From contig NZ_JALLPO010000020.1 of assembly GCF_023276435.1 (NCBI RefSeq), positions 1 to 64,000 on the forward strand: 64,000 nt of DNA, in the 5' to 3' direction. Within the stretch, counting starts at the first letter, position 1. The number at the start of each line of letters is the position of its first letter. The position numbers and the translations under genes were made by a program. The notes under the pieces were generated by a model. The model saw nothing but the letters and a program-made list of their open reading frames with translations, had not been told where the DNA came from and did not search any database. Origin of the DNA: Sphaerisporangium perillae (GTDB lineage: Bacteria > Actinomycetota > Actinomycetes > Streptosporangiales > Streptosporangiaceae). Of the stretch, positions 17,062 to 20,207 are shown one piece after another.

Positions 17062-17113
17062 AGTCTGCCTGAGAGTGCGGTCCTTGCTGCCTCACCTCGG
17101 TATGGTGGTCGCC

Positions 17114-17740
17114 GTGACACCTCCAGGGCAGCCCGGACGACCATCGAGCCTCGCCGAGAGCAAGCGGAGGCTCGTGCGCGACGAACTGTCCTCGGCCGCC
17201 CTGAAACTGCTCGCGGTTCAGGGCTTCGAGAACACCACGATCGACCAGATCGTCGCCGCCGCGGGCGTGTCGCAGCGGACGTTCTTCCGGTACTTCAAGT
17301 CCAAGGAAGACGTCATCATCGAGTTCATCGGTGACCTCGGCGCCTGCCTCCGCACCGGGCTGGCCGCCCGCCCGGCGGCCGAACCGGCCGGTGTGGCCCT
17401 GCGGCACACGTTGTCGGTCTTCGTGGACGCCTACACGGCCTTCCCCGCGAAGTCGCTGTCGCTGGTCCGGCTCACGCTGGGCACCCCCGCGCTGCACGCC
17501 CGCTACCTGGAACGCAAGGCTCGGTGGCAAGCCGAACTCGCCGCCGAGCTGGGCCGCCGCGCCGCACTCGACCCGGACACCGACCTGCGTCCCGCCCTCA
17601 CGGCCGCCGTCGCCCTCGACGCGTTCGACATCGCCCTGGCCCACTGGGCGGCCGGTGACGGAAAGTCCGCTCTCGCCGATCTCCTCGACGAGGCCTTCGC
17701 CCTCGTCGCCCACACGCTCACGATGATCGACCCCGAGTAG
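17114..17740 (+). CDS. TetR-family transcriptional regulator
   Basis: A 208-aa repressor with an N-terminal helix-turn-helix (NTTIDQIVAAAGVSQRTFFRYF KSKE region) and a helical ligand domain. The GTG at 17114 is preferred over the ATG at 17102 because a TATGGT hexamer ends 7 nt before the GTG, the leaderless layout seen at several regulator genes in this window, and neither codon has a ribosome binding site. It is divergent from the SDR gene with a palindrome between them. The ligand is unknown, probably an SDR substrate or a toxic lipophile. Confidence 0.88.
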   Translation: MTPPGQPGRPSSLAESKRRLVRDELSSAALKLLAVQGFENTTIDQIVAAAGVSQRTFFRYFKSKEDVIIEFIGDLGACLRTGLAARPAAEPAGVALRHTLSVFVDAYTAFPAKSLSLVRLTLGTPALHARYLERKARWQAELAAELGRRAALDPDTDLRPALTAAVALDAFDIALAHWAAGDGKSALADLLDEAFALVAHTLTMIDPE

Positions 17741-17752
17741 GGGCGTGTCGGG

Positions 17753-17780
17753 GCCGATCTCAGCCGATCTCAGCCGATCG
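17753..17780. repeat. 10-bp tandem repeat after the TetR stop
   Basis: GCCGATCTCA repeats head-to-tail about 2.8 times starting 13 bp beyond the TAG of the TetR gene. It is another short repeat placed at a gene end, like those at 6599 and 16034. Confidence 0.7.
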
Positions 17781-17911
17781 GACGGCATCGACCGCCGGCG
17801 TCAGCCGAACCGGTCTTACACGCGGCCGGCCATCGTGCGGCAAATCAGGTGACTCAGGTGGTAGGCCCCGGTTAGCCTTCCGGTGATGTTGGTCCGCGCC
17901 TGGAGGTAGTG

Positions 17912-17965
17912 ATGCAGCAGAGCAAGGTCACGGCCACCGCTTCGACGCGAGGGCGCGCCCGCTAG
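17912..17965 (+). CDS. Candidate 17-aa leader peptide MQQSKVTATASTRGRAR
   Basis: A short frame with an excellent ribosome binding site (GGAGG at 17902-17906, 5 nt spacing) ends at a TAG 74 nt before the MFS transporter start. It encodes 17 residues ending RGRAR, which contains two Arg-x-Arg motifs. Arg/Lys-x-Arg/Lys is the established nascent-chain motif at which macrolide-bound ribosomes stall in erm-type leaders. The downstream RNA can form alternative helices with the transporter ribosome binding site. The role as an attenuating leader is inference. Confidence 0.5.
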   Translation: MQQSKVTATASTRGRAR

Positions 17966-18033
17966 CAAGCAGGCTGACGCTCCTCGCCGCGAGGCGGTCT
18001 CCGGCCCATTGACCGCTTCCTTTGCTGAGGAGC
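17946..18033 (+). promoter_or_regulatory. Candidate translational attenuator before the MFS gene
   Basis: Mutually exclusive complementarities are visible. The leader codons for R-G carry GCGAGG (17947-17952), which can pair with CCTCGC (17982-17987). The same CCTCG can fold back on CGAGG (17990-17994). The overlapping GCTCCTC (17979-17985) is exactly complementary to GAGGAGC (18027-18033), the transporter ribosome binding site. A further GCGGTC/GACCGC stem (17994-17999/18011-18016) lies between. A ribosome paused on the leader would change which helix forms. The direction of the switch needs folding or probing. Confidence 0.5.
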
Positions 18034-18039
18034 TCTGTT

Positions 18040-19314
18040 TTGCGTGCCCTCCTGTCCGTGCGACTCGGCGCGGACTTCTCCAAGCTCTGGACCGCCTCGG
18101 CGGTGTCCAACGTCGGCGACGGCATCACCATGGCGGCAGGACCGCTGCTCGTCGCCGCACTCACCAACGACCCCGCGAGCGTCGCGGGAGCCGCGCTCGC
18201 CCAGCAGTTGCCTTGGGTGATCATCGCCCTGTTCAGCGGCGTCTACGTCGACCGGCTCGACCGCCGTCGTCTCGTCATTGTCGTGAACGTGCTTCGCGGC
18301 CTCGCGCTGACCGTACTGGCAGCGACGATCGCCACCTCCACCGTCTCGGTCCCGCTCATCTACATCGTGTTCTTCCTGCTCGGCGTCGGTGAGACCCTCG
18401 CTGATACGGCGTTCTCCGCGCTGATACCCGCCACGGTCGCACCGGAGCAACTGACCTCGGCCAACTCCCGGCTCACAGCCACCACCATCCTGGGCAACCA
18501 GATCCTGGCCAAGCCGCTGGGTGGGTGGCTGTTCGCGGCCGGCGCGACGCTTCCGTTCGCCGCCGACGCGCTCACCTTCCTGATCGCGGCGGCACTGACC
18601 TCAGCCGTACGCATCCCCCCGCCAGGGCCGGCCGCGGACGACGGCGCACGCATCTCCTCGCCGGAGTCCACGGCGGACGGCGGCACACGCGTCTCATCGG
18701 CGGAGCCCACGGTGGCGCGGCGCAGCGTACGTGAGGACATGCTCGCCGGGATCCGCTGGCTGTGGCGGCATCGGCTGCTCCGGACCCTCGCGATGAGCAT
18801 GGGCATGGCCAACGTGGCCTTCTGCGCGCCGTTCGCGGTCTTCGCGCTCTACGCCCAGCAGCGGCTGGACCTGAACGAGGTCGGGTACGGCCTGCTGCTC
18901 ACCGCGTTCGGCGCCGGCGGTCTGGCAGGCAGCGCGCTTGCCACCAGGCTGCAGGCCAGGTTCCGGGCCACGGTGCTGCTGCGCGGCGGCCTGATCGTCG
19001 AGATCGTCACCCACGCCGTACTGGCCGCCACCACGGAGCCACTGGTCGCGGCGATGATCCTGACCATCTTCAGCCTGCACAGTGTGAACTGGGGCATCAT
19101 CGTGGCCACCCGGTTCCAGAGGGAGGTGCCGGACGGACTGCGCGGCCGAGTCGGCAGCGTCTACGCGTTCATCCAGGTGGGCGGTGCGGCGGCAGGTTCA
19201 CTGCTGGGTGGCCTGATCGCCCAGACGGTGACGATCACCACCCCGTTCTGGGCGGCGGCAGCCGCCATGACCATTATCACGGCAATCGCTTGGCGCCCCC
19301 TGCGTACCGCCTGA
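18040..19314 (+). CDS. MFS drug-efflux transporter (macrolide-efflux-like)
   Basis: A 424-aa transporter with about twelve hydrophobic helices in two halves, the loop motif DRLDRRRLVI after helix 2 and a hydrophilic middle loop (about residues 190-235) that contains a degenerate ISSPESTADGGTR / VSSAEPTVARR repeat. It belongs to the MFS group that includes Mef and Tet(V)-like exporters and probably exports an antibiotic by proton antiport. The TTG at 18040 is chosen because GAGGAG lies 7 nt upstream; a TTG at 18022 and a GTG at 18058 are in frame. The preceding leader and foldable RNA suggest drug-inducible translation. Confidence 0.88.
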   Translation: MRALLSVRLGADFSKLWTASAVSNVGDGITMAAGPLLVAALTNDPASVAGAALAQQLPWVIIALFSGVYVDRLDRRRLVIVVNVLRGLALTVLAATIATSTVSVPLIYIVFFLLGVGETLADTAFSALIPATVAPEQLTSANSRLTATTILGNQILAKPLGGWLFAAGATLPFAADALTFLIAAALTSAVRIPPPGPAADDGARISSPESTADGGTRVSSAEPTVARRSVREDMLAGIRWLWRHRLLRTLAMSMGMANVAFCAPFAVFALYAQQRLDLNEVGYGLLLTAFGAGGLAGSALATRLQARFRATVLLRGGLIVEIVTHAVLAATTEPLVAAMILTIFSLHSVNWGIIVATRFQREVPDGLRGRVGSVYAFIQVGGAAAGSLLGGLIAQTVTITTPFWAAAAAMTIITAIAWRPLRTA

Positions 19315-19401: not shown

Positions 19402-20022
19402 TTACTCGAAACGGGACGGGTCTCCTGCTCCTCTGCGGAGGATCTCCGGTTCGTCCTGTGAGAAGTCGATGACCGTCGTCGGCACGGCGCCGCACTCACC
19501 GGCGTCGATCACGGCGTCCACCACGTGGTCGAGCCTTTCCTTGATCTCCCAGCCTTGTGTCATGGCGTCGGTCTCGCCGGGCAGGAGCAGGGTGCTCGAC
19601 AGCAACGGTTCGCCGAGTTCGGTCAGCAACGCCTGCGCGACGACGTGATCGGGGATCCGGACGCCGACGGTCTGCTTTCTGGGGTGCATCAACCGGCGCG
19701 GCACCTCCTTCGTCGCAGGCAGGATGAACGTGTAGCTGCCGGGAGTCGCCGCCTTGATCGAGCGGAACAGCGCGTTGCTGACGTGGACGAACTGGCCGAG
19801 CTGAGCGAAGTCCTTGCACACCAGGGTGAAGTGGTGGTGGCTGTCGAGCTGGCGGATCTCCCTGATCCGGTCGATGCCCTCCTTGTTGCCCACTCGGCAG
19901 CCGAGTGCGAAGCACGAGTCGGTCGGGTACACGATCAGCCCGTCCGCACGGACGATGTCTGCCACCTGACGGAGCACCCGAGGTTGCGGGTTGTCCGGAT
20001 GCACGTCGAAGTACTTTGCCAT
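19402..20022 (-). CDS. YrdC/Sua5/YciO-family protein (threonylcarbamoyl-AMP synthase-like)
   Basis: A 206-aa single-domain protein with the YrdC fold signatures: PTDSCFALGC near residue 35, the KR..K-like positively charged pocket and the PGSYTFILPATKEVP segment followed by the VGVRIPDH motif. It most resembles YciO, the paralogue of Sua5/TsaC that makes threonylcarbamoyl-AMP for tRNA t6A; YciO members have weaker or unclear activity. The ATG at 20022 is preceded at 7 nt by TAAGCT, a leaderless-type arrangement. It stands alone, convergent with the MFS gene. Confidence 0.88.
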   Translation of the reverse strand: MAKYFDVHPDNPQPRVLRQVADIVRADGLIVYPTDSCFALGCRVGNKEGIDRIREIRQLDSHHHFTLVCKDFAQLGQFVHVSNALFRSIKAATPGSYTFILPATKEVPRRLMHPRKQTVGVRIPDHVVAQALLTELGEPLLSSTLLLPGETDAMTQGWEIKERLDHVVDAVIDAGECGAVPTTVIDFSQDEPEILRRGAGDPSRFE

Positions 20023-20207
20023 GCATGGGAGCTTAGAAGCGATCGCTCCGGCGCCACGCCCCCTGACCCGCGATCCGCGCGCTGCGCGGTTCATCGGGTA
20101 CTACAACAATGGCTCCAACCAGGACTCCTACGCCGCGCTCCTGGGCGAAGGCGGCGATGGCGTTCCCTGATCTCTGGTGCACTGCGAGCGGCGTGCTCGG
20201 CAGGGCT

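Follow-up and report, generated by a model that had tools for sequence, protein, structure and literature searches.

Layout of the exporter locus

Within the window, by which we mean the whole 64,000-nucleotide stretch of DNA analysed here, part of a 9.3 Mb actinomycete assembly, a gene for an MFS exporter of 424 amino acids lies at 18040-19314 on the forward strand (MFS_3 7.7e-36, MFS_1 6.3e-28). An earlier note on this DNA had given the gene a TTG start, and TTG is indeed found at 18040. The same note called the exporter macrolide-efflux-like. This stands as a distant kinship to the Mef pumps only, since the Mef models score the protein at 42.3 bits (MefA), 42.3 (MefB), 38.2 (MefC) and 27.2 (MefEN2), far under the NCBIfam cut-offs of 675, 800, 870 and 800; membership among the Mef-type macrolide pumps was rejected (27-42 bits against 675-870). 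A phmmer search returned no solved relative at E <= 0.001. Spread on plasmids was also rejected, as tblastn at 1e-40 gave no match in the 72,556 records of a plasmid collection.

A TetR/MftR-like regulator gene occupies 17102-17740, directly 5′ of the leader region on the same strand. It was rejected as a part of the system: matches at E <= 1e-8 are confined to the window's own loci (L001, L002 and L066), in a comparison where many loci extend only 0.5-1.5 kb upstream.

The leader region itself contains, all on the forward strand, a short frame and a set of complementary segments. The leader SD is GGAGG (17902-17906), and in our larger alignment (A3, described below) the rows have a G-rich stretch ahead of the start of the leader. 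It is followed by the 17-codon, SD-preceded frame that the earlier note had reported, MQQSKVTATASTRGRAR (17912-17965, with ATG at 17912 and TAG at 17963-17965); an in-frame GTG stands just 5′ of this ATG, at 17909. Downstream of the frame, the anti-SD CTCCTCG (17980-17986) faces the exporter SD TGAGGAG (18026-18032), which it would sequester in a hairpin whose inner helix is formed by a 5′ arm, GAGGCGGTC (17991-17999), and a 3′ arm, GACCGCTTC (18011-18019). The span 17980-17999, with the anti-SD and the 5′ arm, is common to both of two alternative helices. The second is formed with leader codons 9-14, CCGCTTCGACGCGAGG (17937-17952), a putative anti-anti-SD segment with its partner at 17982-17997. 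This complementarity is longer than the earlier note had stated and is imperfect in the window genome. The two shorter matches that the note had pointed out are both there, GCGAGG (17947-17952) being complementary to CCTCGC (17982-17987) and GCTCCTC (17979-17985) to GAGGAGC (18027-18033). The region 17880-18060 folds better than its shuffles (z -2.77, with 2 of 200 shuffles equally good).

A -10-like hexamer, TAGCCT (17873-17878), lies 34 nt 5′ of the leader ATG and is a possible promoter. We grade it as weak because 17741-18200 contains no promoter by a scan for the sigma-70 consensus; as a raw count, 29 of the 37 aligned rows have a TANNNT hexamer 46-27 nt 5′ of their leader start.

Conservation and distribution of the leader

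Among the matches listed, 32 distinct MFS orthologues share at least 50 % identity with the exporter and have upstream DNA at hand, and 26 of these 32 carry a comparable leader, a frame of 11-25 codons that follows an SD at the corresponding position. Typical leaders are MRLGKVTATASRRGRTTL, MRLGMVTVHATTREPAEI and MRLDMVTAAAPAREFTVR. The orthologues without a regular leader are L033, L153, L162, L163, L164 and L168, of which L162 and L164 carry leader-like frames although counted as misses. Three loci were left out of the count for having DNA identical to others (L059, L060 and L064, identical to L032, L003 and L037), L032 for having only 67 nt upstream before the contig end, and L142 for holding only an exporter fragment; L037, which aligns in two pieces (1-330 and 329-422), and L050, which ends at residue 298, were both counted. 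At L032 (76 % identity) the upstream bases 1-67 at the contig end hold no hairpin.

Carriers include Sphaerisporangium melleum, Acrocarpospora corrugata, Micromonospora lutea, Micromonospora sp. C95, Verrucosispora sioxanthis, Paractinoplanes lichenicola and members of further genera. In family f37 the element stands before the exporter in one genome (G430, locus L154) and before the exporter fragment of L142 in another (G521). That fragment matches residues 2-48 only and has stops from codon 73; its genome has other MFS homologues.

The distribution of the element is patchy. The exporter is present at E <= 1e-60 in 46 of 341 family genomes, and within the genus an RNA model of the element matches 6 genomes out of 11 at E <= 0.01 (one match being weak) and leaves 5 without a match. 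Upstream of MFS homologues near 35-48 % identity the element was not found by eye. Matches to the hairpin pattern are mostly chance: among 20 stretches inspected from the matches listed, 11 hold neither element nor hairpin, and of the 9 that hold one or the other, 8 have it before a gene of the Rsm22 family, treated below, and 1 before the exporter fragment of L142. Membership in an Rfam family was rejected, there being no match at gathering score in the window or in 11 loci; three matches lie far under their gathering scores, with E up to 5.

Two loci depart from the common layout. At L004:2068-2355 the spacer between leader and exporter is 198 nt and contains a large extra predicted structure, and the RNA model matches two places there. 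At L071:1492-1773 a leader, MACMVRTEVAVSATTRGLAAT, and a complementarity, CGCTACGA:TCGTAGCG, stand upstream of an APH-family kinase gene, with a weak match to the RNA model (E 0.007).

Two mutually exclusive helices

Pairs were counted for predefined structures in two alignments, A2 with 18 rows and A3 with 34 rows, the latter being the 37 aligned rows minus L071, L036 and L058. The SD-sequestering hairpin is paired in 96.2 % of cells in A2 and 94.8 % in A3, with 5 double-changed pairs in each against shuffled means of 1.6 and 2.0. Within it, the helix between SD and anti-SD reaches 97.1 % of cells (34 rows) and the inner helix 93.0 %, with changes on both sides in 4 of its 9 pairs. The alternative helix between leader and anti-SD is paired in 85.2 % (A2) and 87.2 % (A3) of cells, falling to 35-53 % when the partner is slid by 1-3 columns in A3 as a control. 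It holds 16 double-change cells in A2 and 33 in A3 (shuffled means 8.5 and 16.6), and in A3 none of 500 shuffles reaches as high. The count of pairs with a double change is reached by 25 of 500 shuffles, and further pair types are not above shuffles (227 of 500 reach the observed number). Since the rows were chosen for having the leader and are related to each other, these pair counts are not to be read as probabilities.

The hairpin and the leader helix share the anti-SD and, as drawn from the alignments, exclude each other. An alignment of orthologues, which the earlier note had proposed as a check, thus finds both the leader (26 of 32 among the matches listed) and the two helices conserved with compensatory changes, which puts leader and pairings above chance. 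The earlier idea of a leader-coupled RNA switch governing access to the exporter RBS is borne out to this extent, and we consider an RNA switch before the exporter well supported by comparative sequence analysis. The element has a conserved SD-preceded frame, a hairpin that sequesters the SD and an alternative leader helix, with release of the SD computed from folding. By these features it is probably a conserved translational attenuator, whose expression response to stalling on the leader is predicted from equilibrium folding.

The switch would presumably act on translation rather than on transcription. Attenuation of transcription coupled to translation of the leader, by a terminator or by Rho, is conceivable in that uORF attenuators can act partly in this way, as the excerpts of the toiL report indicate for toiL and Rho (PMC12121999). 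We hold such a mechanism to be very improbable here: the conserved hairpin contains the exporter SD and ends just 5′ of the start codon, and an intrinsic terminator scan of 17741-18200 gives 0 terminator-like sites (shuffles mean 0.2).

Predicted effect of ribosome position

A mask the size of a ribosome was placed at each leader codon in turn, and the cost of opening the exporter SD was calculated by equilibrium folding with no kinetics. For 35 of the 37 rows the median cost is 7.2 kcal/mol without a ribosome, 6.9, 6.8, 6.4, 6.8, 6.1, 6.1 and 6.1 kcal/mol with the P site on codons 1 to 7, and 8.5-10.0 kcal/mol on codons 8-17. Early ribosomes thus differ from no ribosome by about 1-2 kcal/mol in the median. 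In 30 of 35 rows the lowest cost falls on one of codons 1-7; in the row of the window it falls on codon 7. The late-minus-early difference is positive in 31 of 34 rows, with a mean of 3.05; when codons 8-16 are shuffled the mean is 0.44, and the observed value exceeds the shuffle in 33 of 34 rows. Two other footprints retain the contrast in the medians. With a footprint of -10..+19 codon 7 is already closed (all-row median 8.7), so the boundary between early and late is fixed only to about codons 5-8. In this model access to the exporter SD depends on ribosome position, a ribosome on codons 8-17 being predicted to close the SD and one on about codons 3-7 to open it.

On balance we lean towards a switch set by the position of the ribosome on the leader, with no particular nascent peptide, in which ribosomes held early would turn the exporter on. 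Ribosomes running through codons 8-17 would unwind the leader segment of codons 9-14, and the freed anti-SD would then pair with the exporter SD and turn the exporter off. Ribosomes held early, on about codons 1-7 and best on 3-7, would leave codons 9-14 holding the anti-SD, with the exporter SD exposed. On this view the pump would be induced by inhibitors that trap ribosomes on the start codon or immediately past it, together with the Rsm22-type gene in those genomes that have one in the same direction. Inhibitors of this sort, which keep ribosomes in the early part of the leader, are the probable inducers; the related rows behind this model are not independent of one another.

In the window's own clade the early/late effect is weak and dependent on footprint, with the ribosome-free RNA about as open. 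Its 6 rows average 6.8 without a ribosome, against 9.9 at codons 1 and 3, 8.5 at codon 5 and 6.3 at codon 7. A footprint of -16..+14 gives 8.2, 9.6, 9.3 and 8.7 at codons 1, 3, 5 and 7 and 8.1-10.7 at codons 9-15, and with a footprint of -13..+17 the late-minus-early difference is negative in L003 and L037. The earlier note had proposed that stalling on the leader changes access to the exporter start. A position-dependent access is indeed predicted; late coverage would close the SD, and the effect is small in this clade.

These values bear on a rival in which the leader senses the availability of ribosomes: an untranslated leader would form the helix with the anti-SD and leave the exporter on, translation would turn it off, and any loss of initiation would induce. 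Such a sensor would use the same conserved helices, and in the window's clade the SD opens at lower cost without a ribosome than in most early-ribosome states. In that clade the two readings compete seriously as the models stand. Across the wider set, the medians favour an early ribosome over none, and three Micromonosporaceae rows cost 11.4 without a ribosome against 5.6-7.5 with an early one. Moreover, 20 of 34 rows, although 0 of the 6 in the window's clade, allow a helix with at least 5 of 6 pairs between leader codons 2-4 and the exporter SD, and this pairing would close the SD in naked RNA. Overall we regard the availability sensor as a rather unlikely, if serious, alternative.

Leader nucleotides rather than residues appear constrained

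The earlier note had proposed stalling at Arg-x-Arg as the mechanism, and a macrolide or ketolide that stalls ribosomes at such a C-terminal motif would, on that proposal, expose the exporter SD. Of 37 leaders, 17 contain the motif [RK]x[RK], which is C-terminal in 16 (in L035 it lies only near the N-terminus), and all 6 leaders of the window's clade have it. Other leaders end in TREPSAR, AREFTVR, TRGDIAL and the like, and without the motif they keep the nucleotides that pair with the anti-SD and not the residues. With a ribosome on codons 13-15 the median cost of opening the exporter SD is 9.3, 9.3 and 10.0 kcal/mol; such a ribosome would free the anti-SD, and the SD is therefore predicted to close.

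Two positions have invariant third bases in the 34 rows, codon 5 ending in G and codon 9 in C, with varying residues. The leader has a pN/pS of 1.22 (29 leaders, 268 pairs; 1.01 for codons 2-8 and 1.36 for codons 9-17), a ratio that is pushed up by the RNA pairing constraint and third-position GC bias, whereas that of the exporter N-terminus is 0.42 (21 loci, 142 pairs). We read the leader value as a lack of evidence for selection on the peptide rather than as proof of its absence. Taken with the invariant third bases and varying residues, it makes the nucleotides and the open frame look constrained and the residues not, and the switch does not seem to sense the short peptide as such. We accordingly dropped +x+ stalling as the shared mechanism, given a motif in only 17 of 37 leaders (C-terminal in 16), a pN/pS above 1 and closure by codon 13-15 ribosomes in the model, and consider macrolide stalling at the leader C-terminus improbable.

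The same data weigh on a simpler reading, in which a constitutive hairpin occludes the SD and lowers exporter expression while the leader frame is either a bystander or the source of a trans-acting peptide. As this reading would have it, pairing is more complete in the SD hairpin (94.8 %) than in the leader helix. However, leader frame and leader SD are both preserved, there is covariation between the leader nucleotides and the anti-SD, and a trans-acting peptide should be under purifying selection where the leaders show a pN/pS above 1. This reading strikes us as quite improbable, and we retain the switch set by ribosome position.

Comparison with known attenuators

The erm-type attenuators (ermC, ermB, ermD) combine a leader frame, competing helices and sequestration of the SD before a resistance gene, and need the drug together with the nascent peptide at a defined codon. 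The actinomycete element shares the leader frame, the competing helices and the sequestered SD; it differs in that its leader residues vary freely, with a C-terminal +x+ in only 16 of 37. Other uORFs serve other genes: that of whiB7 in actinobacteria controls a regulator, and vmlR, cplR and vga(A) are ABC-F genes. From these the element is set apart by the genes regulated. According to the excerpts of the toiL report, all four uORFs are induced by several ribosome-targeting drugs, and those of vmlR, cplR and vga(A) likely by way of start-codon stalling (PMC12121999).

The nearest known mechanism, by the description in those excerpts, is found at E. coli topAI-yjhQ. There the RNA of the toiL uORF pairs in the region of the following gene's RBS, ribosomes held on the uORF relieve repression, and several drug classes act; the authors expect a stall anywhere in the uORF to relieve repression (PMC12121999). 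The likeness lies in uORF RNA that pairs at a downstream RBS and, as predicted for the actinomycete element, in relief by ribosomes held on the uORF. In contrast, the actinomycete element has a separate anti-SD held by leader codons 9-14, an arrangement that predicts opposite effects of early and late stalls, and it stands before exporter and Rsm22 genes. By analogy, toiL, vmlR, cplR and vga(A) may be taken as precedents for uORFs that sense start-codon stallers (excerpts of PMC12121999). Mef(E)/Mef(A) is likewise an MFS-type pump, for macrolides, with attenuation control; the excerpts of its description place that control at transcription (PMC4335068), and the pump here scores 42 bits against the Mef(A) cut-off of 675.

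Among the open-licence PMC papers listed we recognised none on this leader. The best reading is a new family of translation-stress attenuator, of a general kind already known. By tolerating free change of its peptide, such a sensor would illustrate how induction can be made broad instead of specific to a drug, and the element could be used as a reporter to detect compounds that arrest ribosomes early.

The element before Rsm22-family genes

A gene of the Rsm22 family (PF09243, 6e-88) lies 3′ of the exporter in 7 genomes (L003, L033, L038, L045, L048, L051 and L052), where the two would presumably be co-transcribed; S. melleum is among the strains with both genes. At 10 further loci (L068, L069, L133-L139 and L141) no exporter or only a remnant of one is present, with the hairpin standing just 5′ of Rsm22. 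Nine of these 10 keep a recognised leader, the exception being L138, where the SD is changed and no leader is recognised. In all 10, a frame read from the controlled RBS stops close to the homology-placed Rsm22 start, from 9 nt ahead of it to 20 nt beyond it; this fits translational coupling, and with short spacers it is partly trivial.

In mitochondria Rsm22/METTL17 is described as a small-subunit assembly factor that occludes the mRNA channel, as far as the excerpts of one report go (PMC9892005). By extension from this role, a bacterial Rsm22 might be an inducible factor for assembly or protection of the small subunit under translation inhibition. Among the papers listed in a narrow search of open-licence PMC we saw no report on the function or control of bacterial Rsm22. 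The hairpin kept before Rsm22 in 10 genomes that have lost the exporter or retain a remnant leads us to a further, tentative proposal: a new actinomycete family of ribosome-stress attenuators that reads ribosome position and not the nascent peptide might have the bacterial Rsm22 homologue, rather than the pump, as its lasting client, which we think possible but doubtful. On the favoured reading of a switch set by ribosome position, the element is a conserved actinomycete stress sensor whose single translation-linked switch would govern an efflux pump as well as, in part of the genomes, a protein of the Rsm22 family.

In the window's genome Rsm22 was not found, in a search run without a positive control. 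After the exporter, where the 7 relatives have Rsm22, the window has a Sua5/YrdC-family gene (PF01300) on the minus strand, at 19402-20094.
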